In this document: positions 7,301 through 58,500 of the stretch, in pieces | How the letters are laid out: every line of letters starts with the position of its first letter | How positions within the stretch are numbered: position 1 is the first letter of the stretch | From: Pomacea canaliculata | Lineage: Eukaryota > Mollusca > Gastropoda > Architaenioglossa > Ampullariidae | Length of the DNA stretch: 64,000 nucleotides | Direction of reading: 5' to 3' | Assembly: GCF_003073045.1 (NCBI RefSeq) | Contig: NC_037594.1 | Location: forward strand, 31,236,737-31,300,736 | Position numbers and translations under genes: made by a program | Notes under the pieces: generated by a model | Database searches by the model: none | What the model saw: the letters and a program-made list of their open reading frames with translations, nothing else | What the model was told of the DNA's origin: nothing

Positions 7301-7329
7301 GTGTGTGTGTGTGCACACAAACAGCATGA

Positions 7330-8665: not shown

Positions 8666-8682
8666 GGCTTTTTAAGACGAGG

Positions 8683-8965
8683 TTGTGGTCATTAGTGATA
8701 TCCACGCCTGGATATGCTATATTCTGGGACGTATTGATGTTTGATTGGAAGTTTCACACCAGTAAGATAAAATCGATCTGGTTACGGATCTACCCATTGC
8801 AAAATGAATGCCCGGCTCACCCGGTATCTCGATTTTTTAGGGACAACATCATAGCACCCTGGACCATCTTGTTTTTATTGAAACGTTCACAAGGGAGGCA
8901 TTTGTCTGTAAATACATGTTCTAAGGGTGTTTTTTAATTTGGAGAAGGCGTACGACACTATCTGT
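8683..8965 (+). mobile_element. LINE reverse transcriptase fragment
   Basis: A broken reading frame resembles the finger/palm start of non-LTR reverse transcriptase: a stretch like STLDHLVFIETFTREAFVCK around 8855-8910, followed at 8935-8960 by an FxLEKAYDT-like motif (NLEKAYDT). It has the same orientation as the LINE 3' end just upstream but lies downstream of that copy's tail. It is therefore a second fragment or a rearranged piece. Several stops and shifts show it is dead. Confidence 0.65.
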
Positions 8966-16775: not shown

Positions 16776-19700
16776 CTTCATAGTCATGAACATTATCTTC
16801 TGCGCCGTCAAAAAAGGTGATAGGACAGGAAAGAGGAGGGTGTCCGTCTGGCGGCTCAGAGCTGAACAAAAATGTGATTACTGTAGTATTTCATACGAAC
16901 ACTTTGGCAACAATGAACACACATTATTCTACTTAATAGAAGTACCTTAGAAGTGCAAAATATTTTTCTACTTATTAGCACATACAAACACTTACACAAT
17001 CTGATTCACAATGGTGAAGTCAGCTTTTAATGTAGGCAGAAACAGCTTAAATAGGTCCTGATTCTCCAAAATCTCTGGAGGTGTGCCACCTAGCAATTAA
17101 AAAAATATTAACATCAAAAATAAACAAAATGATAACGAGAGATTTTCATTTTATGGATTCATTAAACTCATCATCATTGTCATAACTTGATGCCTATAGT
17201 CAATTTATTTTGGTGCGATGTAGACCCTTACATTAATACTCAATTGCTGCATTCCTTATGTTGACATGTTCAGTGAACCATGCTGTACAGTCTGGACTGG
17301 TCGTCCGAGGGCTGCACGGACTGATAAAGCTTGAAAAAAGGAGCATTTCGTTGTCGTCAGTAGGCAAATTCTGCATAGTACAATCAGTCCTTCCATTTAT
17401 TATTACCAGCAAGTTCTTTCTTTATCCCCTTGATCGATGCATACCTGATGGATGCTCTGAAGATCAGTCTTACAACACTATACTGAGTCAAAGGCAAAGG
17501 CACATGAGCCCGCGTTACTGTTGTCAGAAGGAGCTTCTGGTGTTCCTTCCTCCACAATGGTGCTAAATAGAACTGGCGACAGGATCCTCCCTGACAGACA
17601 CCCTCTGTTGTCTGAAAGTCTTCTTACTAGATGGGTGTTAGTGAGTACTATGATCACTGAGTTCTCGTACATAATTTCGATGACTTGGTTGTTGAATCTT
17701 CTCGTGACATACCATGTCCTTCATACTGTATATGAAGCGAGAAACACTGATACTTTGTTTACGTGCTACTTTCTAGACTCTTATCGTTTTTGTATGCACT
17801 GTCACTGGACTTGCTTGTCTTGATGAGTATCCTCGTGTGATACTCCTTTCACTTCTTTAGGATCTCCCTGCTTCTGACTTTTCTGTTTGTATTACAGGGA
17901 CACAGATAAATTGTTCACACAAGACGAGATCAGAGACCTAAGCTGCTGTCTCATGCAAGCTCAACTGACTGGCAGCCATTTGTCATAATTTTTAATTATA
18001 AAAATAATTTATTGATGAGTACATGATTTTGTTTCTTATACAAACAAAATTTTTTTATGACCCCACTAAGTCAAAGGTTCATAATCTGATGTCATCTGTG
18101 AATCATTAATTCCCTAATTCTCATTACAGTTTTGTTATTAGTCTTTGATTCAATATTCACTACTCGCAGTTATAGCTGAATGTAATGAATGCTCGGAAAC
18201 ATTTTACCTCAGAAATATCTTACCAAGCTCTTTTACATACTGCTCGAATTCTTCGTCACTAGTTGTAGATAGGTCTTTTGATTCTCTTCGTCTACTTTCA
18301 GTCTGCAAATGCATCATCATCATCAATCATCATCATCATCAATCATCATCAATCAATCATCATCATCATTATTTCACATACTATTTGTGACTATTTCTGA
18401 GAGCGTTCCCCATTTCTTCTCCCTCGCTGCCTTACCTTCTTCTAATGAGTCATGCACCCGTTTCCTTTCTCATCATTAAATAATAAAGCTCAAGGCCTGG
18501 ATGCTCCATCTGGTATTTCTTTTTTTTAGATATTAATTACATTGAAATTCATTATTAGTACAAGACTTAAAATATTAGATTGATAATAGTTACTTTCCAG
18601 GTGTATAGTCTGAAGCCATAATGTTGTTACTGTACAAAGTGATATGTGATATAATGAGTGATATAATGTGATATAATGAGCAAATAATGAGTCCTATGGT
18701 GACAAGAGTTATCTCACATGTGGTGCAGAAATACCAGACAGATACAAGTGTTGCGGTTCCTTTCCATACACAGTCTTCAAGAAGACGGCCGTTTGAAAGC
18801 ATAAAAGAGCGCCCATGCTGAAATTAGAGAAAATAAAACGAAGTTTACAAGCCTCTAATAAACTGCATTCACATAAAAAATAATAGGTTTTTAAATTTAT
18901 AAATGGAGATGGAGGAGGTTGTAGGAACTTAAAATATTCTTCTGAATCAAAATTTTATATTTCTGAGATAAAGAATTACTTTTAAAGTTTAATTTATTAT
19001 TAATCACAGTCTGTTCTTTTAGCATCATAAAACTTCTAGACGAAAAAGGTAGATAAGGAGAAAGGATGAAAAAAAACGGGAAATTAATCAATTAAAACCT
19101 TACCTAATGGATGAGTAAAAGCAAATTTTTTGTGGATATAACATCTAATATTAAACAGTAAATATATATTTCTTATTTTTTTGAAGCAAAGTGTATGGGA
19201 ACTAATTAAACTTGCTATTACCTGTGTCCAAACAGTATGACAGGCTTCTCGCCATACTCTGAGTGAATGGTGGAAGCTATCTCGGCGACTGTCTCCGTGG
19301 CGGACACACAGGGTGTCTCTGCAAACCTAGATTCTCTGCCACGAAGTGTCACCCCAAACACTGAGAGTGAAAGAACTACATTGATTAATCTACGGTTTTG
19401 TAACTCATTAAAAATGGAAATGTTAAGTAATACCTCCTCCATATCTTTTATATTTTCCGATATATACCGGAACAGGCAATAGGAAAGACACCAAGAACGA
19501 GACAAGGGCAAGATACAACGGACAGAACAAACAAACATTATGTGAACGACGGAAGGATAAACAACAGTACCGATGACGAATAAAACAACTAATACAGATA
19601 CAGAGGAACCAGGGGGGATGAGCGATGAACATCGCGGAGGTGGACGTGTCTGCACCTCTGTGTGAAGAGAATGTCTCTATTTATTTACAATAAAAACTTT

Positions 19701-23800: not shown

Positions 23801-25135
23801 TAAAGGGGAAAAATCCATAATAGAATTAATCCTGAGTGTAGTAGGGGTTTTCTCCCTTTAGTATTCATTCGTTAGCACAGCGATGTGTTGTTCGACACAA
23901 CCCTAGTTGAGAACAGGTTTACATCACAGTGTTGTGTCACGTAGGCAGAGAGAAGACATCTGATACTGATGTCTTCTGATCATCTTCTGACATCTGATAC
24001 TGATTGCAGCCAGGCTTTGGATGGCCCCAAGATGTCGTTACTACTTCAGTTCTGTCACGTGATCATCTGTCGCTGGGTGGACGTGACGACTGCAGTAAGC
24101 AAAGCGCTTAGTGACCAGCGGGTAAACAATTAGGCTTAAGTATAGTTTTTTTTATATACATTTCAAAATAAACTTGTGTGCATATTAAGACACCCAAGAT
24201 CACATCAGTTAAACATTCTTCCTTAATGGTTTTTGTTTTCACCATATTCTTCTTCTGTCTCCATTAACTGCCTTTGCTGTATGATTCTATCGTCACATTA
24301 TGTTATTTTTATTGTTATTTTTTGACAAAATAATTATATTTTTGTTTCTGAATAATTTATATTTTAACATTATAATTTCTCTCTTCTCATTACGTTTCCA
24401 TTTCCGAAGAATGTGTCTTTTAATCAACACATCTGAAGTGCATCCTTTTAAATAAAGGTAGACCCGTTTCCTTTGCTTCTTGGAAATATTTCTTTCCTGC
24501 AAAGGGAAGTGTAAGGCGATAGACGTGCCTTGGCCACGTGACAGACCAGCTGCACGTGCTGCTCTCACATTGCGAGTCAAAGAAACATGGCGGACGTGAG
24601 TCACTTGTATCCAAGGTGACAGACCTGAATTCGGAAGCGTCGATAACTGGAAAACATAAAATTTTAAAAAATTAAATCAGTAATATTATAAGGCTTTATT
24701 AGAATTATAAATTATTCTTTTAAAATTAGAAAAAATAATCACATGTTGATATTTGTTTGCAAATGTTATTTTTGTTAAAAAAAAAATACATTCCTCGAGT
24801 AATTTATAAGTATTGCATAGGAAGATGTTGTATATGTAAAAATATTTATATATTAATGTATGTAACATAGACAGACATGTATGCTATATATTTGTAGTAC
24901 CTGGTGGCTCTGTAATTTATTTAGATTATTTATTAATTACGATATTAAAAGCAGTTCGGTATTATTTTCTGGGTGTTTGATTCTTTTTTCTTTTAACAAA
25001 TCTGCTCTCTTATTGAAATTTTATGCGATGCACAAAAAGAATATTAAAATTAACAGTTAATTTTACATCAAGTTAAATGATAAATCTATTATACATTTAT
25101 GTTTAATCAATAATACCAAATAGTATGTGCATCAC
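20849..25135. other. Intergenic region between thioesterase and dermatopontin gene A
   Basis: No gene supported. The last exon of dermatopontin gene A (expected to hold the final Cys) should lie here but was not found. A short duplication (ACATCTGATACTGAT twice, about 23956-24003) is the only clear repeat. An ATGCACAAG followed by a good donor GTGAGT at about 23275-23290 could be a tiny first coding exon, but nothing downstream supports it. Confidence 0.4.
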
Positions 25136-26989
25136 CTGGTTTTCAAGTCAAAGGAACTGTTGATCGCTCTGAGTATCATATCTCTGGGCACTTTAAAATA
25201 TTTCGGGACACTGGGCGATGCTTTGCTCCACCGAGTGAGGCTGCATCCATGGATATAGCTATCTGTGGACAAGAGCATACTGACAGAAACTTCTAGATTC
25301 TGGATACAAGGTGTTGCCAGAAAGTCATGGTCACCAGGGATGTATCACAACACAGGAAGAAGGAAGTTCAGGGAGGAAAGTGAAACCAGAATAAACCTGA
25401 TCGTCTTTGTTTATAATAAAGATCAGTCTTCAGTAATGTAAACGAAGAGCTTCATTATGAAAAAGACAATGACAGATTTATGAAGGGCAGTAAAATATGG
25501 GGAAAGATGGTTTTGTTATGTTGTCCAGCTGCCCTCTCACTTACAGTTGTCAATACCGCTAAGATATTTAATTTGGTATTTGCAGACAATGTTTATTTTG
25601 TCATTTCAAGAGACTGATTTTAAGGAGGGGGAAAGGGTTATAAAGTAAAATGAATGAATAGAATGTGTTGTCAGGTCGAATAAGCGTGCAGTAAGAGTAT
25701 GCCTAAGATGTCAAGCAGAGTTTTGCACCCTCCGTTGATCTGTTTCTATTGTATGCGAACTTCAAGTTCCCGAAAAATATAAAAAATACGTTTACTGTGA
25801 AAACATTTCATTACAAGACTGTGAATGCTACGAATGTTAGCGACAGCGGGGAACGAACAAGCCGCTTCTCAGTTTGCAAGACAGTGCTGTCATTTACAAT
25901 TCCTGAAAGAAAATTGTTTGGATACCTTGTGACTTGGAAAAGATAAACACGAATGTTAACATAGAATACCAACTGAAAAGCGTTAAATTTATGAGAAGTG
26001 TGAAGATGATTTAGCTCAAAAGAGTTTGGCGACACAGGAGAACAACGAAAGCCGTTTAGAAAATGGGTTTCATTCTAGTCACGAAGGTCAGACCTGGACA
26101 GGGTGCTTCCTGTTCACTTTCATACCTGAAGAGAAAGATGTAGAATAGTTGGACAACATTTAATAGTTATGCTAGTTCTCATTTTCTTACTCTGAATTTC
26201 ACAACATGTAAAACGGAAACATCGCTCCCTCTTGTCCTTGTCATAGTGGCTTGTTACACCAAAGAAATAGCCGTTTCCTGGGCACTGGAGCATGTATGGC
26301 TCGTCAAGTTTATGTTTGACTTCATCTGAGGAAGAATAAAAGAAATAATTTAACAATGACATGAGAATGTCGATGTTAATAAAAATTGCGCAAGACCATG
26401 CAAGCTGTCGAGAGAGACAGAGAAGCAGAGAAACAGAGAGAGACAGAGAAAGAATAAGAGAGAGAATAAAATAAAGAAACTTGAAAAACAGCCTAAGTGG
26501 AATAAGTGGATTTATAAGAAACGATAATAATAATAAAAACCGTAAGCACAATGAAAAAAGGATAAGAGCAGTTTCGTGAATGGACTGTTGTACGAGAGCA
26601 ATTAAGTTGTTAGAGCCCTCACATAATTATTAAAAAAAAAAAAAAAAAAGAAAAGAAAACTCAAGTCTTTATGTTTCTAGATGATTTCTTCATGATTCTT
26701 ACAATCTGTTCCCCAAATCCTTTTGTCTTTATCAACTACCCCCAACACTTTATTTGCAATATTGTAGCAAGTCACCTGACAAATTGCAGTAAGTAGTTTT
26801 TGCCTTCCCAGGTAGCGGAGAACAAATGAACCTCCAGATGTGGTCCCGCTTGTCACTGGAGAAGCCCATGATTCCACTGACTGACTCATTGGAGGAACAC
26901 TCAGAATGAAAACTCTCATACGGACGTGTTTGTTCTTTATTTCCTGTAACTCCCAAAGCCACGAGAAGCAGCAGCCCCAGTGTCAAGGT
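25136..26989 (-). CDS. Dermatopontin-like protein, gene A (partial)
   Basis: Three minus-strand exons found: 26776-26989, 26191-26325 and 25136-25262, with the same phases as genes B and C. The first carries a signal-peptide core (TLTLGLLLLVALGVTG) and repeat 1 ending in HIWRFICSPL. The second carries repeat 2 (LDEPYMLQCPGNGYF, then CFRFTCCEI with the paired Cys). The third carries repeat 3 (YIHGCSLTRWSKASPSVP). Dermatopontins are small secreted extracellular-matrix proteins; in molluscs several occur in shell matrix or as lectins. By analogy with B, a tiny first exon (ATG plus one codon) and a last exon are expected; neither was located. The W-x-ND-Y/F motif of B and C is absent from repeat 1, so A is the most diverged member. 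Confidence 0.83.
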
Positions 26990-28200
26990 CTGTAGGAAAG
27001 AGTTCACAGAATTTTAGTGTCATCACACTTTGAAATGGCCTTCATGTCAAGTGCTGAAATGAAATGTCTTACCCTTACATCTTGCTTTAGTATGGCCATG
27101 TCAAGACAAGTGGCAATCCAGTCGACATTAAACTTTAAACTGTTTGCACTAACACAACCGTTCATTGCCAGAGACAAATCATATCACAAATAAAAACACA
27201 AATACAGTGACGACATTTTGAAGCAGATAACAAACCTCGGCATCGGCATTCTCTTCCTAAAAACTGAAATAAACCTATAGTATCCTTGTAGCAGATCAGC
27301 GGAATGTTATTTATTTATATATGTATATAGAGCAGCGGTTCTCAACCTGTGGGGCGCGATCCCCTGGGGGAGTGGGAGTGGCGCGACGTGCTTACAAGGG
27401 GGTCGCAAAGGTGATCATTTTTTTAAAGTTTCTTATACCGGTATTAGTGAAATTAGCTTACATTGCTGGCTAAGGGGGGCGCGCGGACGTACCTTTGTTC
27501 GTCAGGGGGGCGTCACAAGTAAAAGCCGCCGACAGGTTGAGAACCGCTAACCTACTAATTTAAGTTCCTTGGTTATATGAATGACCCTCCTGTGGTCGAC
27601 AGGACTAAATCGTCGTCTCTGAGGCATGATTAAAACGGCGCATATGAACCAGCAATAAACCCTAACATGACTGAGTTGTGTTGGCAATGGACAGGGCTTG
27701 CACATGCACTGCATGTTTTTCACTGTTCAATTCTGCCTTGTCATATGGATGTGTTGCTTATGTTCGCATTTTTGTGTGGGTTCAATGACTTGTTTTGTTT
27801 AACTGCTTACCTGCACTGTACTAAGCAAGCACAAGATCAAACTGGATCGTCATCAAATTCACGTTAACTGTTCATCCACACAAATTTTTTTTAATGAATT
27901 TCTGTTTAAAATATGAAGGTGGCCTTTCCATTATTTTGAGCAGTGTATATTCCCGACACCTGCAGAACTCCGACTCCTACTTGAATCAGAAATACACGTG
28001 CACATTATAAGCAGAGTGAATGGGTGGGTGGTATTTCGCGATTGATACCAGTGCAGATCCACGTTGTTCGTCTAATCCTCGCCAAATTTAGTTCCTTTCT
28101 TCTATGGAAAGGTCACACATTACGGCCGGTTTTTTTTTTTTTTTTGTTTGGCCTGGAACATATTTATTTTACCCGTTATAAAGGGTTGGCGCATTGTAAA
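26990..28200. other. Intergenic DNA upstream of dermatopontin gene A
   Basis: Must contain exon 1 and the promoter of gene A on the minus strand, and holds one hAT MITE (27333-27549). No other gene seen. The conserved upstream block shared by B and C could not be recognised here. Confidence 0.4.
27333..27549. mobile_element. Old non-autonomous hAT copy, relative of the 38.1-kb element
   Basis: Ends CAGCGGTTCTCAACCTGTGG and AGGTTGAGAACCGCT form terminal inverted repeats almost identical to those of the element at 38134-39299. Internal stretches also match, such as the TCTTATACCGGTATTAGTG segment and GGCTAAGGGGGGCGCGCGGA. The whole transposase part is missing. No convincing 8-bp target duplication remains, so this copy is older. 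Confidence 0.85.
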
Positions 28201-32300: not shown

Positions 32301-35300
32301 AGTTTTTAAAGAAAATAGCCTTCTGGCCAAGCTGAAATCTACTGTTTAAGTGTGTTGGTTCTGCCATCACCTCCTCTGATGTCTCTGGCTTGACATAATA
32401 ATAGAATTCCTTATAAGCATTTAATACATCTTTCCAAAATTTATTTTTATGTTGTGTGTCACAGTACACATTTGGGCCATATTTATCTATATCTATGAGT
32501 TTTGGGTATATCTTTATCACTATATCTTTCCATTGGGTTCAGTGACATTTAGCTTTTTAATCCATATTAGCTTTAGCACTTTTATATATTGATAATGTTG
32601 GGTATATTTAAGCCACCATTGCGAACAGTTTTCACTACACAGTTTTGACTACTCCATCCCACACACAGTTAAAGCATTGCTCTTGGAGTTCTTGTATATC
32701 TTGGATAGGGGGATTAGGCAGCAGTATCCATAAATAAATTAATTTTGATAGTTGATGATGATGTCTATTTGTAATGCACAGGTATCCATTCAGAAGAATG
32801 CTCATTGTGCAGCAAAAAAACAAAAAATAAAAAAAGAAGAAAAAGATAAAGTGAACAAATATATAAAACACCAGAAAAGTAAAAATAAAGACTGAAGTGT
32901 TGCTTGGTTGTTTAAGTCTGTCTTAAATAAACAGATGGGTCTTCAGTCTTTTTCAAAAGGTGGTTGGTGAGGTGATGGTGGAGAGTGACGATGGCAAAGC
33001 ATTCCACAGCTTAGGTGCCGCATTTTTGAAGGCCCTGGCTGCGCTTCTAGTTTGGTGTCTTCCACTGCAGGGAGACAGAAGCGTGACTGGGAGCCTAAGC
33101 GATGGTAAGGAGGAACTATATCTTGCAAATAGTCAGGAGCAGTTTTAAACATGCAGGACTGAGCAATCGAAAGTACTTTGGGGTCAATGCGCTTGTTCAT
33201 TGGGAGCCAATGAAGGCTCTGTAGGATAGGGGTGATGTGCTCAGTGGACGACTTTGCACGGGTGACAATCCTGGCGGCTGTGTTTTGAACTCTTTGGAGT
33301 CGATCCAACTGAGTAGCAGGTATACCCCACAATGCACTGTTACAATAGTCCAATCGTGATGTGATGGTAGCCACAGCAAGTGAGTTTGCAGCAGCTTGAG
33401 TAAGCATGGGCTGATAATATTAATGATTTTAGCACAGCCACTCTTCCCATTGGTGTAATAACTCGTTTAAGCCAGGATTTCATTAAATTCCTCGTTTCAA
33501 CATATTTTTCCTTAATGTTTAGAGAGTAACATGTTTCTAACTTAGTGCTTAGCCATATCCCTAATATTATAAATGCTGATGGGTTCCATTTAAACTTCAG
33601 GTGTGGGGAATATTTTATTGGTGAATTTTTTTTTATTTCCTAACCAGATAGCTTCTGTTTTTCCGAAATTTATCTGCAGTCCTGACATTCTAATGAATTT
33701 ATTTAATGTAACCAAAGTGTTATTAAAAGATAATTCGTGGCCTTCCATAAAGATTTGTGTGTCATCGGCAAACTGTAATATTTTGTGTTCTTTTTCATTT
33801 ATTCTAATACCTCTTATGCTAACATTCTTCCTTATCATTACTGCTAGGACTTCAGCACAAAGTATGAATAGGTACGGTGATATTGGATCACCTTGCCTAC
33901 ATTTTATTTTGAACCAATCTGATAGTCTTCCATTAACCATAACCGCTGACTTAATGTTTTGGTAGAATGTTTTTATCCAGTTACAGATACACTTTCTCAA
34001 AATCCAAACTAAGCAATAAACCCGGTAGATTTTTGTGGTCAAGGTATACTATCAGGTCATATATAAATCTAATATTGTCCCCAATGTATCTATTTGCCAT
34101 AAATCCTGTTTGGTCATCTGCGACTAGTAATGGAAGTACTTTTTTAATACGCGTGGCTATACATTTTGAACCTATTTTATAGACCACATTTAAGAGCGAT
34201 ATCGGCCTCCAGTTGTTAATAAATTCTTTAGACTTGTCACCCTTAGGTATACAAGTAATGAGTCCTTCCTTCTGAGGATGTGAAAGTTCCCCATCTCTGA
34301 AGGCCTCGTGAGTGACCTTATGATAAATGACCCTAATTTCTTCCAGAAAAACTTAAAAAATGTTTGCTTCCTATTTGTATTGAGTGCAGGGCTGCTGTGC
34401 ATTTCTTGCATTGTTTTGCATGCATGTTGTGGCAGTTGAGTTTTCAGCCACTTTTGAGTCAGTGTTGGCAACTCCCACAATTCAGTTTTGCTTTTGTTTG
34501 CCTTTGGGGGTCTGAAAATGAATTATGCAGCTTGCAGGTGTCACATAAAGGTTAGGAATAGAATTTTTTTTGTAAATTGCCTTCATTGCTTCTGTATGTA
34601 TTGGGCTTGACACAAATCTGCTTTGTTTGAAAGCGGGTGTATATATGTTATGATTGTAGCTCCAGATGAATACTTGCTGCTTGGTCAGAAGACTGAAATC
34701 AGTCGTTTGGTGATGGACTCGGACATGAGTGACGATGGTGATGACATGATCCTGCCAATTCAAGGCTTGAAAAGTGTCAAAGCCCTTGCGTATGACCCAG
34801 GCCAGCAACAAATCTACTGGATTGAAGGTCGCCAGAAGATGATCAAGCGAGCTCCTGATCATGGCAGCACTGTATGATTGATTTTTTTAAAAAAAATCTC
34901 ACTCATCACTTTGCTATGTTGGTGCATATTTGTATGCACATGCATATCTGTGATTAGGAATAATAATGTAAACTCGAGATGCATACCATTAAAGGGATAC
35001 TCAAGGCTTGTGATAAGGCTCTGTTTCAAAAATATATTTAGTTACAATTACAGAGCAATACAGGAGAAATAAAGGATTCGTTTCTCACTTAATTACCACT
35101 TATTGCACTATTTCGGTTGCCGATGTTTATAAAAATTGAAAAAATCCAGCGTGTGTCCTTCCGCCGAGTAACCATGATATCTTCCCGAGATGGTCAAGCA
35201 GAGGAGTCTCCTTGTGACATCAGTCTCCTTATGACGTCGCATGCACAGGAAATGTTTGTGGTCGTTGTGAAGATTTCACGCCGTCGTCTGTTTATTCGTA

Positions 35301-38300
35301 TGACGCACTCTGTTTGTAAGGCTCTGTCTTTCGGAAGGTGTTGAAAAGAAAATTTTGAATCTTTGTCCATTTTTTCGTGGCAATCGGGTGCAGCACATTC
35401 TCGAGGCATGGTTCTCACTATGGAAACCACACGTCATAGGGTCACGTGACGGAGAACAAGACTTCGTGGAAGCAAAAAAAAAAAGAGTCTCCTGTAATTT
35501 CTCTTATTAAACACAACATTCTACTAAAAATCTTCAACGTTTTCCATATAAACACACATATAAATAGACAAGATTCAAATTTATCCTACTCTTTACGCGA
35601 TTCTACGCAGTTTTATTTTGCCTTCAGAATCCCTTTAATTTCCTTAGTTTCCTGCTTTGTAGTTTTTGTTTAGGTTATAACAAAAAAAGTTTGTTTAGTC
35701 TTTTTAATATATCTTTGGAAGCATACTGCTTGCTGAGTAGACTTCAACTGTTTTATGATTCCATTCATGCTCTGAATCGTCCCTCTGCAGCAGTATGAGG
35801 ATATTTAAACCTTTTTTACTCATATTTGTATTGTTAATGTCAGGTGAAAATTTGCTTTTAGTTCAATTACACACCTTGTTTTTGTTTTTGTTGGTAATAA
35901 GATGATGATGATTACATTCATGACGCAGTGGTGTGATGATGATGACTGAGTATTTTGCTTCTCCACCAGGTTGAGGTGGTAGTGAATGGTAAAACGCGGC
36001 CATATGACATTGCCATTGATCCATTTTCAAAAACACTTTACTGGACATGCTCAAAGCACAATGTGATTAATGTCACTCGTTTGGACATGACTCCAGTGGG
36101 TGTCGTGCTGCAAGGCCCAAGCAATTTCAAGCCCAGGTCCTTGGTGCTTTTCCCAGAACGTGGGTAATCATCTTTTTAAGTTATCTACTTCCTGCGTATA
36201 ACTCATATTTCTGTTATTTTTAGTGGGGGCAAAATATTAAAAATACCATGAATGGCTTACAGAATGTAGTATAACACCCTTGCACTGTTCTGTTCATGGA
36301 ATGAAAATCTTGATGGTGTTTAGTGAAAGATAGAAAAAGCATAATGATTGTCAAGAAGAACAAAATGCAGATTATGCTGCTATTTGCTAAGTAATACATA
36401 AAAGTCTCTGCATCAGTGGATAAAAAACATCATAGAGAAGGTAAGACAAAAATCATAATATTAGTTTGCACATGCCCACACTGTCATGCATTAGAAATGA
36501 CAGTAGTGCATAGAAAAAGGACTGTGTTGGCATTTAGATTTTCAAAGTACAGATGTCTTATTGCTTATTTAATATCTATTGCTATATGATTTGTGTGAAG
36601 TGAAATAAATTCCATTGCTTACACAAAAATTGAAATTACATAGCACTAAGCTACTTGTGGGTATGTCAATGTTCAGCAAAATCTTATAGAAAGACAGTGA
36701 GTAGATATGCACACAAAGCTGTATTCTTGCACTCGGAGTAGTTTGTCACAGGAAGTGAAGGTGTCACCTCTCCCTTTGTTTTTGTTCTTTCTTTTAGTCT
36801 CAGTCTGTCACAATACAACTAGCAGCTACTATGCCAGTATTGTAGTGTTGTCTCTTGAACAGTGTTGTTAAAGTTGGAATTTTTGTTTTATCACCAAGAT
36901 TTTTAAAAACTTGTATGTGAGTGGGTTTTTTTTCCCGATCCCTTCTTTCCTTTGTCATCTTTGGGTCTTTTATGCTTTCACGCAGAATTTACTGCAGCTT
37001 TGGATCCTGTTTATTGTGTATTCAAAACATTCTTTTCTCCTTCATGGCTTATTATAGCAACATCTGTATCTGTTTCAGCTATATGTTCTACACAAACATG
37101 ATCAAATCGCCCCGCATTGAATCGGCACGCATGGATGGTTCAGAGAAAACTGAATTATTTATCAAGGGCCTGGTCCACCCTGTCTCTCTGACCATCGATA
37201 AGACGGAGAGAAAGCTGTACTGGGTTGATGCAGGAAAGAATCGCATTGAGATGTCTGATCTGACCGGGCGAAATCATCGAGTTTTCGTGGATGGTGATTT
37301 GGTTGCACCGTGGGGATTAGCTGTTCATGGCCAGTTTTTGTATTGGTTGGATCTGGATCAACAGCTGCTGGAACGCTGCCAGAAGAAAACAGGTGCCAAA
37401 CGTCTATGGGTGCGAGGTCGTATGCAGGAACTCAGGGATCTTATTGCTGTCCAACATTCACTTGATGTTACCAGCCACCCCTGTGCTGTGGGCAATGGAG
37501 GCTGCTCCCACATTTGTATGGTGGATTCCGACATCAAGGCACGCTGTTCCTGTCCGTACAACCTAGTGTTGAAGAAGGATGGCCTTACTTGTGCAGATCC
37601 CCCAACTTGCCCACCTGATCACTTCACGTGCAAGAGTGGGGGTATCACCTGCATACCTTTGGTCTGGCGGTGTGACAACATGTCAGAATGTGAAGATAGC
37701 TCAGATGAGCAAGATTGCCTAATCTGTGGCCCCACCCAGTTCCACTGCCAGAGTGGGGAGTGTGTTTCAAAGGACAACCAGTGTGACGGAACTGCTAATT
37801 GCAAGGATGGCAGTGATGAGAGAGGCTGCTGTGCTGGGGTACCCTGTGCATCATGTGAGAGTCAGGGTCAAGGAGCATGTGCACCAGGGGAGCTGCAAGA
37901 CTGCAGTGAGGGTGAAGCCAAATGTGTGCACCAGCCAACAGTAGACAAAGTACAGGACAACGCCACACATTACACCATTTGTATAGTTGTTGGTGCTATC
38001 TATCTTATCGTCCTCATTGTTGTTATATTTTACTGTCGTCGCAAGACTCGACATGTGCCGTTTACTGATGACGACATTCCTCCACAATCTCACACACTCT
38101 CCTCCCGTGGAGTCAAGACTTCAGCTTCTAGAGCAGCGGTTCTCAACCTGTGGGTCGCGACCCCCTGGGGGGTCGCGACGTGCCTACGGGGGGGTCGCGA
38201 AGGTGGTCATTTTTTAAAAAAAGTTTCTTATACTGGTATTAGTGGAATTAGTTTACATTGTGTAACCGAGTGGTGCGGGGGCTCAAACTCCAAATCTCTT

Positions 38301-39837
38301 CTCTCTATTCAAGTACACTGTCTCGGCATGCAGTGACTTCTCACTTCCAAAACTCAAAACACAATCTCCCTCTCAACAATTAAGCCTCCAATCTCCCTCC
38401 TCTCGCCTTTTGCCCTCTTTCTCCCCCAATCTCTCATCGCTGACTCCCCTATATTACACCACCATATTACAAACAACTGACAAGATGAATGCTTTCGTCC
38501 GAAAAATTTCGTTGTGGACGCAAAAGATACGCCAAGAAAATATTTTTGATATGTTTCCGTGCTTGTGTAAGTGCAAGGCTGACGTTAACTTGGATCTTGA
38601 TCAGGTGAAGAATGTAATTATTGCCCATCTAAACGGACTGCAAGAAAGGTTTCAGCATTATTTCGCTGAAATTGATGTGACTAAATACGATTGGATTCGT
38701 AATCCATTTCTGGCTGATCCTAGCACAAGCGGGTTGTCCACGCAAGAAGAAGAGCAGCTCATCGACCTTTCGAGTGACCAATCCCTGAAAATGGTCTTCC
38801 AAACAACACCAGTGCCAACATTCTGGATTAGCATCAACGGTGAATATCCTCTCCTTTCTGAGAAAGCAATGAAAGTTCTGCTGCCATTTTCAACTTCGTA
38901 TATGTGTGAGCAAGGATTTTCAGCATTGGCAGCACTGAAGTCTCAATACAGAAATCGTGTGGACGCAGAGGCTGAGCTGCGAATAGTAGTGGGTACGAAC
39001 ATCGCACACAGGTTCGCTTCTTTATGCAACAGCAAGCAGGCTCAACCTTCTCATTAATCAAAGTGAGTGTCCAATAAAATAATATTTATTAGCTTTAGTA
39101 AAATTTCATTAACAGTTATACTTCTTGCAGATACGAACTTTGTTCTTCCGTTGTTGAATTGCATTGATTTACTCGACGCGGCGTTCGAGGTTAGCTAAGG
39201 CTCCCCACCTCTTCCACCGACCTAGCTGGCTAAGGGGGGTCGCGGACGTACCGGTGTTCGTCAGGGGGGTCGCCACATGTAAAAGGTTGAGAACCGCTGT
39301 TCTAGAGGTTTATCCTTGAGTGGCACATCGTTGGCCAGTGGACTGCCACCATTTTATGATCACAGTCATGTGACAGGAGCTTCCTCCAGCAGCTCCACTG
39401 GGACTCAGTATCCTCAGGAGACTTTGAATCCTCCCCCAAGCCCAATTACAGAACGATCAGTTTATACTGGGGGAGGCCACTACTGCTCTTCACAGAGTGT
39501 GGGCACTGTACAATCAGCACTCAGGCAGCATAAGCCACACAGGTCTCATCACTACCACCACCATCATCATAGTCACATTCCCCCCACCACCACCCCGCCT
39601 TGCTCCACAGATGTTTGTGATGACAGTGAGCCTTATCCTGCAAATCTTTTTCTTTACTACTTTAATAATTCTCTTGTAGATGTCAGTTATGACTGTGACC
39701 CCTATCCACCTTCTCCCACCCCTCACCAATACTTTTCAGACGATGTGAGTTGTCCACCCTCACCTTCAACAGAGCGGAACTATTTCAATCCTTATCCTCC
39801 TCCCCCTTCCCCAGTAGGCAACTCTGACTGCATGTAA
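29340..39837 (+). CDS. LRP5/6-like: LRP5/6 (arrow)-type Wnt co-receptor-like gene, short form, last exon split by a hAT transposon
   Basis: Coding blocks: 29340-29391 (signal peptide MEITRLFAVTWILSVCY), 34660-34871, 35970-36163, then 37079-38133 continuing at 39308-39837. Exon 2 starts DEYLLLGQKTEISRLVMDS, matching propeller 4 of LRP6 (TFLLFSQKSAINRMVID). YWTC and NVINVTRLD follow, then LYWVDAGKNRIE. Next come an EGF module (HPCAVGNGGCSHIC), two LDLa modules (CDNMSECEDSSDEQDC, then CDGTANCKDGSDERGC), a non-canonical Cys cluster and a membrane helix (about 37970-38035). The tail has all PPPSP-type motifs (NPPPSPITER, CPPSPSTER, YPPPPSP and others) that bind Axin after phosphorylation. LRP5/6 normally has four propellers of about 1,600 aa; here only the fourth is present. 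Without the transposon the frame totals 681 codons. With it, a stop at 38334-38336 gives 571 aa lacking the PPPSP tail. The signal exon assignment rests on phase and position. AATAAA at 40030-40035. Confidence 0.9.
31005..31155 (+). mobile_element. SINE with LINE-derived palindromic tail
   Basis: Starts GCGCCTGTCACCAATACAGT and includes a B-box-like AGAGTTCATTTCTCG. It ends TGCCGTGATATAGCCTTAGT then GACACGGTGTAAAACACCAA. The tail matches the I-type LINE end at 8617-8665. The body matches 60846-60937. The GCCGTG and CACGGT halves form a small hairpin. Confidence 0.7.
31440..34450 (-). mobile_element. L1/Tx1-type LINE (broken), in intron 1 of the LRP5/6-like gene
   Basis: Minus-strand pieces in ORF2 order: around 34190-34320 (INNWRPIS-like), 33981-34187 (DDQTGFMANRYIGDNIRFIY), 33590-34042 (CRQGDPISPYLFILCAEVLA, then QFADDTQIF, the catalytic ADD), 32200-32520, and 31808-32191 ending in CTFCGNERETIEQ. 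The palm motif and the Cys-containing end fit the L1/Tx1 group. The frame is broken in several places and the copy is interrupted at about 32940-33410 by a second LINE. It is antisense to the host gene and fills most of the intron. Confidence 0.8.
32940..33410 (-). mobile_element. CR1/L2-type LINE 3' fragment nested in the L1/Tx1 LINE
   Basis: The minus-strand frame reads SRLDYCNSALWGIPATQLDR, LQRVQNTAARIVTR, then HITPILQSLHWLPM. These are the hallmark C-terminal motifs of CR1/L2-type ORF2 proteins (YCNSLLYGLP, RVQNAAARLV, HITPVLKELHWLPV). It lies between the palm and C-terminal parts of the surrounding LINE, so it inserted later. Confidence 0.85.
34988..35641 (-). mobile_element. P-element-like fragment with THAP domain, in LRP5/6-like intron 2
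   Basis: Ends TTAAAGGGATACTCAAGGC and GCCTTCAGAATCCCTTTAA are inverted copies with about three differences. Inside, on the minus strand, 35194-35406 encodes MPRECAAPDCHEKMDKDSKF followed by SFQHLPKDRAL. This is the start of a THAP C2CH zinc finger (two N-terminal Cys, LPKD motif), the DNA-binding domain of P-element transposases. The rest of the transposase is absent. It is antisense to the host gene. The target duplication was not resolved. Confidence 0.6.
38126..39307. mobile_element. Young hAT transposon with 8-bp target duplications inside the LRP5/6-like last exon
   Basis: The element spans 38134-39299 (1,166 bp). Terminal inverted repeats are CAGCGGTTCTCAACCTG and the matching GGTTGAGAACCGCTG. 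Flanks are identical 8-bp TTCTAGAG copies at 38126-38133 and 39300-39307, as hAT transposases make. An open frame at 38485-39057 encodes the C-terminal half of a ZBED/SCAND3-like hAT transposase (MNAFVRKISLWTQKIR, then the dimerisation region PFSTSYMCEQGFSAL). The N-terminal zinc finger and most of the catalytic core are missing, so the copy is non-autonomous. Perfect duplications and an unbroken partial frame suggest recent insertion. Confidence 0.96.
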
Positions 39838-41500
39838 ACTGCATGCAGCTTGCGTATTCTTCCTGTACATGCTAGTCACCCAGTTGTGTTTCTGTGGAAA
39901 AGTTGTCAGATTGCATTTGAAATTGCTTATTATTTTCAGAATAATGGTCACATGTTGATAAAGCACAGGTTGCAAGACTGATAATTTTGTCAAATACAAG
40001 TTTTTACGTGTTATTCTGGTAATGCATTTAATAAAACCCTAATCCTTAAATTTGTGAACAGATTGATAATACTCTCAGGTAAATCCGTAAAGAGATTTTG
40101 TTTGTTCTCCTGAACACTTTTTGATATTGGTGAAGCCAGTCTGAAAGAATATTCAGCATCTTTTCCCATTTCCACATTTTGTCCATTTTACAGTTGAAAA
40201 TACCTCATTCCTTTGCTTTATGTTGTATCCCCCACTTGTTTTTTTATTTTTTATTTATTTTTTTGTGTGCTATCTGTGTCACTCCTTATAGTCTCTTTAT
40301 TCATTTTAATTTTACAGTATTTTAGTAGTTGTCTGTATAAGTGATCTCAGTGTCATGCTCTGATGGTGACACGACCTAAGTTACTGTTTTTGCAGATTAC
40401 GTTTCATTTTTAAGTTCTTTCTTTTCTATCATTATGTTTTGTCATGGTCATTGATGTTAAAATTGAATTGGGGCTGATGTTACTGTCAAAGAGAGTCCAC
40501 CAGATGTGTTTAAGTGGATCTTATTGCTCTTTGTAGATATGATGATGTAAATAGTTACAGAATGCACAGTTGCTAGAGCCTTGTGTTTGACAAGATGCAG
40601 GATCCACTGTTGTGATTTATTTATTTCAAAGATGGAAGAGGTGAAATATTAAAAACAAAATCACCCTCTCAGCTATCAAATATGACAGTGATCAGAACTA
40701 TTGATATGTAGAACTGATTTTATGACATTTAACAATATTGGAGAATTTCAAACTGCCATTTTTTTTAATTAGCTTAGTAACATTAAACAAGGCTTAAATA
40801 GGAGTTAGTGCTACCTTATTGTACTATTGTATACATTGGACTTGAGATTTCTATTATTTAAAAAGTTTTCACTTGTTTAAGTCTAAAATGACTATAAAAA
40901 CATCAGTATATGACTAAAAGTATTTCAAAGCCTTAAAATATAAATTCTTGAATGATGAGATGGGGATGGGATTTATAATCCATGATTTTATTTTGTAGCT
41001 GATAGTTTTTAACTAGTAAGTATTTAAATGAAAATTTTATTCATTTATACAGTTTCTGACAGTTTTGCTATTAAGAGGCGATATATATTCAGGTTAGAAT
41101 ATAAATGGCATCAGCATTATTTTATGTTTTGAAGTTGATTATTGTTTAAAGTTCTAAATGTTTCTTCCAAGTTTAGCTTAAGCATATAAAGTATTCATTG
41201 TTTACTGTGATTAAAGATCACTTCCTGCCAACGTGCAGGGAAGATAATTTTTAAATTTTAATTTTAATTTTTAGATGTTCTGTGTTGAATTTTATTCCAT
41301 AACTTCATTGTCATGGCAACCAAAGATGCTCACGAACGGATGGTTATTCTTTCAACAGACTGTATGTTGGTGCAGACCTTTACCTGACAGCAGCAATAAT
41401 TAAAAAACTAATTTTACCCACTGTCGTCTTCAGTCTTCAGTTATTAATATATTTATACTTGTATGTCTTAAAAGAGATGTGTAAATAGGTTGTTTGAATC
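39838..41500 (+). other. 3' UTR and flank of the LRP5/6-like gene
   Basis: AT-rich, no coding potential. A poly(A) signal AATAAA at 40030-40035 lies about 195 bases past the stop. No repeats with clear ends were seen before the LINE fragment at 41.5 kb. Confidence 0.55.
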
Positions 41501-44721: not shown

Positions 44722-45063
44722 CAGTGGTTCTCAAAGTGTGGTCCGCGGACCACTAGTGGTCCATGGGCATGTCAGGTGGTCCGCGGCTGACGGTTGTCAT
44801 GTCAGCAAAGTGATGTTTAAAGTGATGCATTCCTCGCATTAACATTTTAATTACAAAGAACGAGGTACGTAGTTTTGTCAAATTGTTACTATACTACTGT
44901 CACAAAAGGACATTTAGTTTTAAATTGTAATGAAACAAATGCGGCAATTTAAATTAGAAATTCATAGTACAGACTGATTTTTAGGACTTGGTGGTCCGCC
45001 ATACTTTTTACTTAAGTAAAGTGGTCCGCGGTCCGAAATACTTTGAGAACCACAGCCCTATAC
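44714..45063. mobile_element. hAT MITE with 8-bp target duplications
   Basis: The element spans 44722-45055 (334 bp). Ends are CAGTGGTTCTCAAAGTGTGG and ACTTTGAGAACCACAG. Identical 8-bp CCCTATAC flanks lie at 44714-44721 and 45056-45063. It has GGTCCGCGG-type subterminal repeats and no coding capacity. A truncated relative lies at 20752-20848. Confidence 0.93.
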
Positions 45064-45967: not shown

Positions 45968-48793
45968 TCAGCGGAGATCCAAACGGGTGGACACATTGTT
46001 CGGGTACTTGGCTCGGGTGCAGACTTCAAATTTGAAGCGCCAATCACTAAATTAAAACAAAAATCAAGAATGATTAATACAGATGAGAATAAAAAGACAA
46101 GCAAAGCAGAAAAGTTATGGTAAGTATCAGACTCAGGGATTCTCTAACAGAGTATAGCAGCATGGTTGTCCCTCCTGTCCGAAAAAAACATTTGTGAATC
46201 ATTTGAGTTTGTGGCTACTGAAGTGAGTCCGAGGTTCCCGTGTAAAAGCACAGAGTGGGGCACAGATGAGCCATGAAATCATGTTGTCAAGGCGACTGTT
46301 GGGTGAACCTTTGACCTCGTATCCCTGCATCAACAAGTCTATGCCGCCGGTTGCGCTCAGAGTTTATGTATTTACGTATATTGTAAATAGGAATAAATAA
46401 AGGGAAAGTTACTGACAAAAATAATTATTAGGTTGGTGAGTTTGAAGTTATTCTCAGTCCAATAGTCGCTAAGAAAGCTTCATGTGGATTCTTACTTGTT
46501 TTGATCATTGCCTTGGCTGTGAACTGCACTCAGCAATGTTCCTTCAGGAACAGTAAAGTGTAGAGGTTCACCAGTCTTTTGCCAGTCTGTGGTGTTGCAG
46601 CCATGCAGCATGAGAGCTGTAAACAGGGGGGCATGGTAAACAAAGGTGGGACAGCACTTAAGTGTGTGTGTGTGAGTGATCTGTCTCTGCCAACGAGATA
46701 ATACTAACAGAAATATGAATTAAAGAAACAATATCATACAAAATATATTAAAATAATTGTTGACCTTATTCTAAAACAGATATGAAAGCTGAAAAAAAAA
46801 CAGTAAGTCCTCCTGTTACGATAAAGTTACAGTCTCTGCTAAAAATGTTCTCTTTGAAGCCCCGTCTCAAGATTCGGAGCTCCAATATGAAAGAACACCG
46901 ACACAACAGTCTGTTTATGATTGCCCAGTCATGAGACACCCACACACACACCCACAAACACACCCACGTACACACTCACGTACACACCCACGTACACACT
47001 CACGTACACACCCACGTACACACTCACGTACACACCCACGTACACACCCACGCACACACCCACGTACACACTCACGTACACACCCACGTACACACCCACA
47101 CACTTCCATGCAAATCAATCGTCATTCGCCCACCTTCTCTGTTTCTGTTCCTATCCAAAGGACGGGTATTGTTAAAAGAACCATCACCTGGGATCTAACC
47201 ATCACAAAGAAAATATAAAGATGAAAGTTGTGGACTGTTTGTCTGATTGTGTCACTCTTCTGTCTTCATCTGACATACTCTATGGCAGTATTAATAGCAA
47301 ATTTCATTGATTGTACTATTTGGATTGACTTATTTATTAGCACATTTATTAAAACTAATTCACGTGTTTACTTACAAAAAAGACTGTTCGTGGCTGACCA
47401 AGCACAACAGCACCATGAGATTAGCCACCATCAGTATCAACTACACGAGTACCTCACAACACTGTTTGTATACACACACCAGGCACAGACACAACATCAT
47501 CATGAGATTTACCACCGAATACCAACTGCATCCTTCATCATACTACCCTCACGGACACCATCACCAACTTCACATGCAGACACAGAAGAAAGAGCAAATC
47601 TTCAAGATCAAGTCCACTAGAAAAGAACTAATAACTTCCCACCGTTAACTGAAAACTATGCAGTGAGGCACGTGACAATCATAAACAAGCTGCAGCAGAT
47701 TGTCAAAGGGAGAAATCATTGGGTTTACTTACTGAGGTCTTCACAGCACTTAAAAGAAAATCTCCTGTTCTGGAATGGGTGATTAAAATAACTGTCCACA
47801 CCAGCGATATAACTATTTGTCGGGCATCTGTAGTTGACTGGCTCGAATATGCTGTTGGTGTAACCTGCAAGGGAAGAATATAAGTAAATATAAGTAAGGG
47901 TAATAAACTATACACCAATATACTGTACTAGGCGACTGTGCTAATCAACTGTTTATAACCAACATAAGTACAACAGTTAGTAATGTCTTAACTTAAATAT
48001 TTGTCAAATATTTGTTAAAGATTAGTCTTGCACTAGCAATTAGCAGTAGTTATAAAAATGGTAAACCCTTGCAAGAGATATCATGTAGAAACACCTGTAT
48101 TTTAAACATTTTACCTGACCACGAGCATCCAGACTCGCGACCACCTTCTGTCACCGGAGAACAGGTGAAGTTGTACACGTGGTCATCATTGTATTGCCTG
48201 TAGAGGTAGGAGATGGCGGACACAGACTGACCACGTGGACAGCTGAAGCTAAAGGACCCGCCAAAGTCATTCAACCAGGTGGCGGCTCCCGGTAGGGTCA
48301 CAACAACAACAACAACAATCAGCAACTGTGTTGACAGAGCAACGCCCTCGGTTAGTAACACCGAGTGCAAAGAGACAAATCAAAGCTTAAAGTGCTTGAA
48401 GCGAGCAGACGAACGAGCTTACATACACACATACACGAAAACACGCACGCACAGACACAAACACACACACATACACATGTAAAACGCACACACGTGCACA
48501 CAACATGTGCATGAAGCTCACATCTCGAAGCATCAGAGGTACTTCGGGTCATAACTTCTTCCTAAAACTCAGAAAACAACTGAAATATCATTAACCAGAG
48601 GCGAAACTTATTTTCTCGGTTTTGTGTGAGACACTAAAACAATTCATTTCAAAATAGTTTTAAGCTCGTGCTGTGTCGAAGACTACTGTACAAAATAGCA
48701 ATACACACATACCACCTTTATGATACCGACATAATAAACAAGAAAATAGTTAGCAGTCCCACCAGAGAGGATACCGGTTCAACTTACCAACAT
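45968..48793 (-). CDS. Dermatopontin-like protein, gene B (complete, 182 aa)
   Basis: Five minus-strand exons: 48788-48793 (ATG TTG only), 48115-48325, 47733-47864, 46496-46616 and 45968-46046, summing to 549 bases with consistent phases. The product has a signal peptide (MLLLIVVVVVVTLPGAAT) and repeat 1 (WLNDFGGSFSFSCPRGQSVS, then HVYNFTCSPV and CSWSGY). Repeat 2 follows (FEPVNYRCPTNSYIAGV, then RRFSFKCCEDL), and repeat 3 (GEPLHFTVPEGTLLSAVHSQ, then DWRFKFEVCT). The WxNDF start, CCxDL pair and WRFKxxxC end are dermatopontin hallmarks. These are secreted matrix proteins that bind collagen and glycosaminoglycans in vertebrates; mollusc members occur in shell matrix and as lectins. The start codon sits two codons before the exon 1 donor, as in gene C. 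Confidence 0.93.
46930..47103 (+). repeat. Minisatellite, CACCCACGTACACACTCACG-type units
   Basis: A 24-bp unit (CACCCACGTACACACTCACGTACA, here described as a CACCCACGTACA half plus a CACTCACGTACA half) is repeated about seven times with few changes. It lies in intron 4 of dermatopontin gene B (between exons 46496-46616 and 47733-47864). It creates long spurious open frames of Cys-Val-Arg type. Confidence 0.9.
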
Positions 48794-49642: not shown

Positions 49643-49856
49643 AACATATTTTATTAATATTATTGTCCTTTACCTCAATTACATTTCGTTATTTCTTACA
49701 GTACATGTTTAGATGGTATAGATTGATTACATATTATAACATCTGTAAACAAAAAAGTCGAAGGCGTATAAGGGTTTGTAATATTTATGATGACAGTTGC
49801 TGCTTTTCTGTGACCTTTCACCTGACGAAATGTGAAGACGTTGGTCATTATGGCCT

Positions 49857-49995
49857 CTCGTATGAAGCAGGAGATCAGTGGCCATCATTGTCTCTCCTAT
49901 GAAGCAGGAGATCAGTGGCCATCATTGTCTCTCCTATGAAGCAGGAGATCAGTGGCCATCATTGTCTCTCCTATGAAGCAGGAGATCAGTGGGCG
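49857..49995 (+). repeat. 37-bp tandem repeat with hairpin core
   Basis: Four units start at 49857, 49894, 49931 and 49968 and are nearly identical. Each holds CTCCTATGAAGCAGGAG, a perfect five-base stem (CTCCT/AGGAG) with a seven-base loop. It lies between dermatopontin genes B and C. Confidence 0.92.
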
Positions 49996-55582: not shown

Positions 55583-58500
55583 ATGGCCAGAAACGCTCAT
55601 CTGGACAGCGGGAGGCTGCGGTTCCTGTATGTCACGTGGGCGGTGCTGGAGACCATGTTGTTTGGGGGCCTGATGAATGGCTGGGCCTCCCTCGTCTTCA
55701 TCCTGAAGGAGGATGGACTGTATAGAGACCTGTGTGAGAACAACAGCTCTCTCACTCTGCTGGGTGAATACCAAATCTTTCTTTCTAGGAGTAATCACAA
55801 ACACATAATCACTTAATATCTCTCTGTCCCTAAGGATAAAACTATTCATATATTAGCAATTCATTTTGTACAGACACATCAGTACTAGAAAAAAAAAATT
55901 AAGGGCAATTAATGCCCAGACACAAACACAATTTCGACTATTGCCGGAGTACTATGAGAGATAAACTCATTTATAAAACTTTTGCAAGTTTTTCAACTGA
56001 ATGTGTGTAGGCAATGGGAGCTCACCACACTCCAGCATCTGTACAGAACAGGATGCCATGCTCAATCTCTGGTTCAGCATCGCCACTGGGCTGAGAAACA
56101 TCTTCGGAATAGTTATCGGACTTATCATCTTCAAGTTTGGTACTCGTGTGGCCAGACTTCTAGGATGGTAAGACTACCGCATTTAACTATTCTGATTGGG
56201 TTTTTACCTACCTCTCCTGTGCTTTCAAAACTTGGGAAATAAGTATCTTCCACGTGTTTTGACAGTCAGTAATGAAACTATAGCAAAGTTTATATGGAGC
56301 TATTCTCACGACAAAGTAAACGAATAACTGTGTTCTCCTATCCTTCTTCAAATCGTATGAAATACATAAACACAAGGAATTTTTTTGTCTGTAACAATAT
56401 TTAAATAACTTTATTATTAATTATAATCATTGGATTTGTTGACGTAACAGTCAAAACAATCCTCACTTCAAATTTTTTATATAAGCTTCCTATTACACCA
56501 TGTTTATATACTAATACATTATTAATATATTATTCTGTATTTTTTTTCTTCTACTCTTATTTTTCAGGTTTCTGTTTAACGTTGGGGCTCTCATGATGGC
56601 TTTTTCAGACAGCTGTATGGAATACTACATTCTTTATTTACTGTGATTTTAAATAAATACTTATTTATTTTAAAAGAAATCCTATGTCATTTTTTTTTCC
56701 ATTTTTTGCTTTGGATTCAATTAGTTTCATCTGCACGAGATATAGAGAGTGCCTGTAGCGGATGGAGAGACTGGATGATAGCTGATTCAATTCCTTTTTG
56801 TAGGACCGAAAGAATGGCATAAAAACAAAGAACAGAGAGAGAGAGATGGGGAGAGGGTGGGAAGAAATTGTTAATTCTTTGCACGTAGTAATTTCTGCAG
56901 ATCATTCCTTATTGTTGTTTATTTCCCGAGAGTATTTGTCAATCTTATATGACACTGTATTGTTGTTAATGTTGTTTGTGTTGTTGTTCCCTTGTCTGCT
57001 GACAGCCGCTCCTTGGCTGGTGTTTCCGTCGTTGCTGGCCTTGTCGTATGGAGGAGGAACGTTGCTGCTGACCAACGTGCAGTTATCGTCCCTCTTTCCT
57101 CGAGCGTCTGGAGTTATCGTCACCCTTATTTCAGGTGGCGTTGACTTCTCGGCTACCACACAGCTCCTAGTGAAGGTAGAATGGTTTGCACCTCAAAATA
57201 TCAAGATAACTTTCTCTATGTCATTCACACGAGCACAGGCACGCACACTAATCCACAGTCCTCACCCAGAGCTTCAGTCTTAGGAGAATTCAAATTAATT
57301 CAATGTCTGTACTTTTTAATTCACTTTCCATATCTATCCTTTGTTACTTTTATTTTCTTCATATGTGCACATACCCTACCTTCCTAACCTGTTTTAGCCG
57401 TGATGTAATCGTTGTTGCTGTCACGATATTGTAATATACAATCCATCCATCCATAAAGTGGTCAAGTATCTTTATTCCAGTTACTTCGAGAAGCTGGGAT
57501 TGCCCGCAAATCCTCCTACATAGGCATCACCATTGCACACGCCTGCCTCGCCATGATCAGCACCATGTTCTTCTTGCCCAAAAAGCTGTACACGCGGAGA
57601 CCCAGCATCTTCCAGTTCAGGGCAGACGACATCGATCTCGAGCGATTGAATACGATTGCGAGAAAAGCCCTCGCCGCCAAGGAAGAGGATGAAAGTCAAG
57701 GCGACGATGAATACGACAAGAGAGAGGTCGTTTGTGATGATCAGTGTGGAGACGACAAGAGGAACACGTGTCAAGAGGGAATGAGGTATGGCAATCACAC
57801 AAATAATAATTGTCACAAGACCAGCACAGTGTCCTCCCTCCAGCACACAGGCAGTGACCTCATTCTTGACCCCCGGACGCTGTTGACGAGCGTTGAGGAG
57901 CTGGACACAAGATGCGGCGCGTGCGGCAAACATGTCTCCACAGAATCTGTGGGGAAAGTGAGAAATAACACGGATTCTCTCACATCTGCTCTACAGAGAG
58001 AGAGCACGTGCCACACACAGCAACGAAAAGGCTCAATGTTCGATGGAAATATTCCCAAGTGTAGCCTCCCTTACAGTGGCAACCATTTGCTTACAGAGGA
58101 GAAAAAAGTCTACATTTCCATCGTAGACGTTCGTTTTCCAAGTCAGGTGGTGAAACCAAATGAGAAAGATGAAAAGACAATAACAAAGGATGTGTCCACT
58201 CATAGTGACGGACGTCCACCAAGAAGGCAGAGTGACAGACCGACTGCTCATGTGCGCCTAGTGTTTCCAGAATTTTCCAAAGAAGCGAATGAAATGGGTA
58301 AATAAAAGATATTTTTTATGACGGCTGCTTTATGTTCGTTCCTCTGGAACGCTGTAGTTTCGATTGTCTGTCTCGGCTAGAGGCACAGTAAGAAAAAAAA
58401 AGTAGCGTGTGGAGATTCGAACTGTCAACTTATTCATTGCATGGCATCACAAAGTTATGTTTCTTTGTTTACCTCACAAGAAGACGGAGACGCTCCAGGT

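Follow-up and report, generated by a model that had tools for sequence, protein, structure and literature searches.

LRP6 deprived of its cytoplasmic tail acts as a dominant negative. Phosphorylation of the PPP(S/T)P motifs is necessary for the activation of Lrp5/6, and Lrp6 without its extracellular domain is constitutively active (passages of PMC11576741). In portions of a second study (PMC3160902), the phosphorylated PPP(S/T)P motifs dock Axin, an inactive LRP6/5C chimera is sometimes dominant negative, and LRP6 is called essential for embryogenesis. Transposons of the hAT superfamily have short terminal inverted repeats (TIRs) of about 10-25 bp (excerpts of PMC8961557), target site duplications (TSDs) of the Ac group follow the pattern nTnnnnAn (excerpts of PMC10368747 and PMC8961557), and subterminal TGGGTCGCG repeats are described for Buster1 in a section of PMC4298943. 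According to passages of PMC9860276, introners derived from non-autonomous DNA transposons exist. Here we analyse a 64-kb stretch of Pomacea canaliculata contig NC_037594.1 ("the window", meaning the whole stretch of DNA), in which a hAT element interrupts the coding sequence of an LRP5/6-type gene. The explanation that we consider fairly probable is that an internally deleted Buster-type hAT element recently landed in sense in this gene, or in a partial copy of it, and severed the signalling tail.

The insertion, its host gene and the element

The argument relies on the following features, given in window positions:

34660-34871 (+), LRP5/6 exon A, which opens the fourth YWTD propeller; AG before 34660, GT at 34872
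35970-36163 (+), LRP5/6 exon B, part of the fourth propeller; bordered by AG and GT, in frame with exon C, no Pfam match
37079-38133 (+), LRP5/6 exon C as far as the end of the upstream TSD; remainder of propeller 4, an EGF-like domain, two LDLR-A repeats, membrane helix and 33 cytoplasmic residues
37965-38033 (+), membrane helix, approximate, read by eye
38134-39299 (+), the element, 1,166 bp, a non-autonomous hAT, probably of the Buster group
38485-39057 (+), transposase remnant from the ATG at 38485; last 190 amino acids and stop, with the hAT dimerisation region
39073-39078 (+), AATAAA polyadenylation-type signal inside the element, in sense to the receptor (string match only)
39308-39837 (+), cytoplasmic tail cut off by the element, containing five PPPSP-like sites and its stop
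39626-39679 (+), candidate for a 54-nt mini-intron, GTGAGC...TTGTAG, of in-frame length
40030-40035 (+), AATAAA downstream of the tail, probably the polyadenylation signal of the gene itself (string match only)

The element is flanked by a perfect 8-bp TSD, TTCTAGAG, with copies at 38126-38133 and 39300-39307, and its TIRs at 38134-38149 (+) and 39284-39299 (-) are identical at 16 of 16 positions. Within the window no other inverted repeats of 12 bp or longer, their arms spaced 60-4000 bp, are bordered by a perfect 8-bp direct repeat. When the threshold was lowered to 10 bp, one extra structure appeared at 24777-28140, flanked by the low-complexity TTTTTGTT, and in 40 resamples drawn from a first-order Markov model of the window no TIR/TSD structure arose at 10 bp. 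The insertion within a coding exon of this LRP5/6-type gene is thus confirmed; an earlier note on this DNA had given the same coordinates, element length, TSD and shift arithmetic, all of which were reproduced base for base, and its placement of the element between the membrane helix and the first PPPSP motif is borne out by the coordinates of both.

Together with one TSD copy the element measures 1,174 bp, which leaves a remainder of 1 modulo 3 and shifts the receptor frame. This frame enters the element, adds 67 foreign residues and ends at the TGA at 38334-38336. When the flanks are joined at a single TSD, the frame stays open through the tail to its own stop at 39837. Translation thus agrees with what had been claimed earlier, both for the stop and for the single open frame through the PPPSP motifs after removal of the element, and the frame shift and stop support the severing of the tail in the sequenced copy.

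The LRP5/6 identity of the part of the gene that is present is well supported by similarity. Exon A was found only by a hand-written probe (tblastn, E 3.7e-12), Pfam giving no match, and exon B is closest to LRP6 chains by phmmer (best E 2e-25, versus 2.9e-21 for LRP4). In exon C, Pfam recognises PF00058 (class B), PF14670 (EGF-like) and two copies of PF00057 (class A); by whole-sequence E-value it matches LRP2 (2.1e-294) and LRP4 (1.5e-176) before LRP6 (8.1e-123), the two proteins ranked above LRP6 being ones that carry many such repeats. The matches are consecutive on the chains, for example on 3s2k, with exon B at 385-441 and exon C at 442-620. Across exons A, B and C the frame is kept at GT-AG borders, with introns of 1,098 and 915 bp, and the intron upstream of exon A is of phase 1 and lies at a domain border.

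The tail sites all lie downstream of the element: PPPSP (39430-39444), PPTTTPP (39580-39600), PPSPTP (39706-39723), PPSPS (39754-39768) and PPPPSP (39796-39813). We take these five sites to be the PPP(S/T)P motifs of LRP5/6, PPTTTPP being only loosely alike, so the assignment of the tail draws on motif likeness. A comparison of the tail with solved structures returned no convincing relative (35 matches up to E 1, the best at 0.0073, all weak); in the one alignment shown, a His-rich stretch of the tail pairs with the start of the matched chain. The proposal of an LRP5/6-like receptor accordingly stands for the part present, with exon B matching LRP6 best, and does not extend to propellers 1-3, which were not found in the window.

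As for the element itself, the 8-bp TSD, the 16-bp TIRs and the C-terminal dimerisation region are those of a hAT transposon, and the superfamily named earlier is upheld by them. Its longest open reading frame (ORF), at 38266-39057, matches the dimerisation region PF05699 at residues 180-236 (E 1.5e-4), and Pfam finds neither a BED finger nor a catalytic domain in this ORF. Because both are missing, the element is taken as a non-autonomous copy, which is still within the hAT superfamily. GGGTCGC subterminal repeats occur at 38152, 38170, 38192, 39237 and 39267. We take the TSD consensus of Buster elements to be nnnTAnnn, with a central TA, and TTCTAGAG fits it. The same octamer is compatible with the Ac pattern nTnnnnAn, and since it fits both patterns alike, membership of the Buster group is probable and not proven.

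A related copy of the type of a miniature inverted-repeat transposable element (MITE), 217 bp long, lies at 27333-27549. It has the same 15-bp left end and one mismatch at the right end, two of its stretches match the element at 82% and 80% identity, and its flanks carry no duplication. This identity and the missing duplication indicate that an older copy of the family is also present. Exact searches with the left end of the element gave no match in viral contigs (31-mer and 21-mer) and none in bacterial and archaeal genome contigs (21-mer), and of 22 stretches in viral contigs that matched a pattern of the transposase remnant, tblastn confirmed none; since they cover viruses, bacteria and archaea, such searches say little about animals. 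The remnant had one match among solved structures, at chance level (E 0.2), and NCBIfam gave three matches for two of the four ORFs submitted, all far below the cut-offs.

Traces of other hAT elements may also occur in the window. At 44722-44736, CAGTGGTTCTCAAAGTGTGGTCCGCGGACC looks like the left terminus of a hAT element from another family, a presumed likeness. The broken open frames at 11326-11814, with a weak match to a spin-doc zinc finger below the cut-off (E 0.0092), presumably resemble a hAT transposase in its N-terminal region.

Predicted product and age of the insertion

The element lies in sense to the receptor and carries the AATAAA string at 39073, so that the locus is expected to produce a stub bound to the membrane. 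What we infer for the end and stability of the transcript and for signalling runs as follows. An internally deleted hAT element, presumably mobilised in trans, would have inserted in sense and duplicated TTCTAGAG. Transcripts from this copy would end at the AATAAA of the element, or would at least stop in frame at 38334, and the likeliest product would be a membrane-anchored stub whose cytoplasmic portion consists of 33 native and 67 foreign residues and is devoid of PPPSP motifs. A protein of this kind should not recruit Axin and, if it had a full ectodomain, would be inactive or dominant negative; the outcome "null or dominant negative" would follow from LRP6 biology. The copy would survive either by being carried on some chromosomes only or by not belonging to the animal's main LRP5/6 gene.

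Whether such a stub could accumulate depends in part on the candidate mini-intron in the tail. This segment has a pyrimidine-rich run before TTGTAG and 31% GC, compared with 51% in its flanks, and it lies where the low-GC windows of the cytoplasmic part (35 of 579, versus 8 of 1001 in exon C) form their one cluster. Two splice-site pairs exceed the thresholds in the receptor coding sequence. At least one such pair appears in 51 of 200 codon shuffles, and the window contains 0.53 per 2 kb; as shuffles and window give similar pairs, the splice sites by themselves prove nothing for the mini-intron. Its removal would keep the PPPSP-like sites and create a separate last exon. The exon hit by the element is described in the earlier note as the last coding exon; given this candidate it may not be the last. 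If the mini-intron were real, a junction would lie beyond the new stop, so that transcripts passing the element would be open to nonsense-mediated decay, which the AATAAA at 39073 could evade by ending the transcript early.

Several points weigh against a stub made by a Buster-type insertion. The PF05699 score (21.9 bits) is barely above its cut-off (21.4). A real mini-intron would lead to a null through nonsense-mediated decay and not to a stub. The dominant-negative step relies on work on LRP6 deletions and on vertebrate assays. Finally, should propellers 1-3 really be missing, most of the ectodomain would be lacking from the stub.

The perfect TSD and TIRs suggest a recent event, as had been proposed, and a simulation of frame survival points the same way. 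The open frames can be used as a clock because the transposase remnant, and the tail on this copy, should be unconstrained after insertion. With 2,000 trials for each of these two stretches and the two survival fractions multiplied, the chance that both frames remain open falls from 0.077 at 2% divergence to 0.021 at 3% when indels amount to 8% of substitutions and each indel breaks the frame. When stops only are counted, it is 0.065 at 8% divergence and 0.031 at 10%. The remnant alone gives a weaker bound (a chance of 0.04 at 5% when indels are included, and of 0.13 at 10% for stops alone). According to this model the insertion is young, with a few percent of neutral divergence at most.

Persistence of the copy and competing explanations

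The copy may have persisted because not every chromosome carries it. That the insertion sits on one haplotype or in few individuals, the empty allele being normal, is a sub-case of the explanation we favour and has, in our judgement, a little better than an even chance. It would account for a tail that is still open with its motifs complete, and it agrees with the perfect TSD and TIRs, with an age bound of a few percent and with the requirement for LRP6 in embryogenesis (PMC3160902, in the portions cited above).

A serious rival, which we place somewhat short of an even chance, is that the locus is a partial, 5'-truncated copy of LRP5/6 or a rearranged fragment, the hAT element having hit weakly constrained DNA. 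It is taken seriously because no propeller 1-3 exon was found in the 34.6 kb upstream. The hand-written probe, which did find exons A and B, detected no exon of propellers 1-3 or of EGF 1-3 in 1-34659 (tblastn and phmmer). Nor was any propeller 1-3 exon seen in a motif scan of ORFs of at least 25 amino acids, which reported only the ORF of exon C, or by Pfam over the three forward frames of 1-37003 (the Pfam scan left out the minus strand of 1-12999 and 42003-64000, except for two ORFs). The motif and Pfam scans, that is, all but the probe, are weak negatives, because both also missed exons A and B.

Pieces of other genes occur in the upstream stretch. A Reeler domain piece lies at 12159-12395 (+; E 3.2e-13), with no match among solved structures and no other exon of a Reeler gene identified, a thioesterase-like piece at 15666-15788 (-; E 5.1e-8 for the whole frame, no single stretch passing) and a dermatopontin domain piece at 26174-26329 (-; E 1.7e-10, two stretches in frame). 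A second thioesterase-like piece at 18715-18822 (-) stays under the cut-off (E 0.039). If the locus is not a partial copy, the intron ahead of propeller 4 must be longer than 34 kb and have other genes inside it. The two introns that are seen, of just 1,098 and 915 bp, favour a partial copy. However, genes nested in long introns are known in animals, exon A begins at a domain border after a phase-1 intron as in an ordinary gene, and exons A to C and the tail retain their frame, splice borders and motifs, so that a duplication, if there was one, would be recent or still in use. A partial copy is in any case compatible with the recent hAT insertion proposed here, which allows for it.

An improbable alternative, raised in the earlier note, is that the element is spliced out as an intron and leaves the receptor near normal. 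Splice sites were scored with a simple home-made matrix based on approximate consensus frequencies. By this measure 100 GT-AG pairs would reopen the frame into the tail, and the best of them, from the donor at 38273 to the acceptor at 39365, scores 10.5 in total, which lies between the gene's own introns (12.2 and 8.4) and above the random-insert median of 7.0; the best acceptor inside the insert or TSD reaches 4.9, against a median of 4.4. Introners offer a precedent (passages of PMC9860276). However, inserts of 1,166 bp drawn at random from the window score at least as high as the best pair in 57 of 300 cases, and for an acceptor within the insert or TSD they do so in 133 of 300. In addition, the exact junction 38133/39308 is not GT-AG, and 11 of the 12 best printed pairs use tail acceptors and lose tail sequence ahead of the first PPPSP. 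Splicing-out was set aside as leading explanation after this control; at the level of sequence it is unsupported, with nothing in its favour beyond what random inserts provide. For a conceivable fusion of LRP and transposase through splicing, a bare count gives 320 frame-open pairs.

Still less probable is a fixed or high-frequency insertion in which the element, through its in-frame stop and sense polyadenylation signal, would serve as a terminator cassette and a stable tail-less LRP5/6 decoy would tune Wnt signalling beside an intact paralogue. That the assembly joined unrelated pieces at this point is hardly credible, as a misjoin is not expected to yield a perfect TSD, perfect TIRs and a restored frame.

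The window holds further features. A reverse transcriptase domain spread over two frames, probably of a long interspersed nuclear element, lies at 33647-34250 (-), a few hundred bases upstream of exon A. The open frames at 56804-58305 (+) look to us like an SLC43-type transporter, presumably; two of the ORFs had no Pfam match and the one tried had no NCBIfam match. Tandem arrays occur at 46936-47099 (12-bp unit, 13.7 copies, in an open frame) and at 49855-49992 (37-bp unit, 3.7 copies, 99% matches).

Significance and comparison with known systems

The event is of a known kind, a hAT insertion, in a notable gene. Its importance hinges on the LRP5/6 copy number, the frequency of the haplotype and the transcripts. 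If this were the main LRP5/6 locus and the insertion were segregating, it would represent a naturally arisen allele, lacking the tail, of an essential Wnt co-receptor, the product of a recently active element family, and dose and dominance could be tested outside the model species. A decoy, if true, would mean a natural dominant-negative co-receptor arising from one transposition step, and a partial copy would reduce the event to a routine insertion into relaxed sequence. A literature search for a transposon insertion in an LRP6 coding exon with premature stop codon and Wnt found no paper, a result that carries no wider claim that such cases are unpublished.

Among transposons, the closest relatives probably belong to the Buster group. 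The GGGTCGC subterminal repeats resemble the TGGGTCGCG type of Buster1, the CAG-type TIR equals that of Schmidtea Buster1 at 11 of 15 positions and differs at 4, and a hAT dimerisation region is present as in the Buster group and its MITEs (Buster1, Buster2; section of PMC4298943). In contrast to the group, the element is only 1,166 bp long and keeps just the last 190 amino acids of the transposase. Like the introners, it is a non-autonomous element, bounded by TIRs and a TSD, that sits within an exon (passages of PMC9860276), whereas its splice signals stay within the range of random inserts.

With LRP5 and LRP6 the locus shares the fourth propeller, the EGF-like domain, LDLR-A repeats, the membrane helix and five PPPSP-like tail sites, but only the fourth propeller was found in the window, beyond which the other three may lie, and the tail is split off by the element. 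Drosophila Arrow is presumably the counterpart of LRP5/6 in the same comparison. Pfam recognises two LDLR-A repeats here, and LRP6 has three. As in the LRP6 delta-C constructs, the membrane anchor is kept and all PPPSP motifs are lost; unlike these constructs, the truncation at this locus comes from a natural insertion and would add 67 foreign residues.

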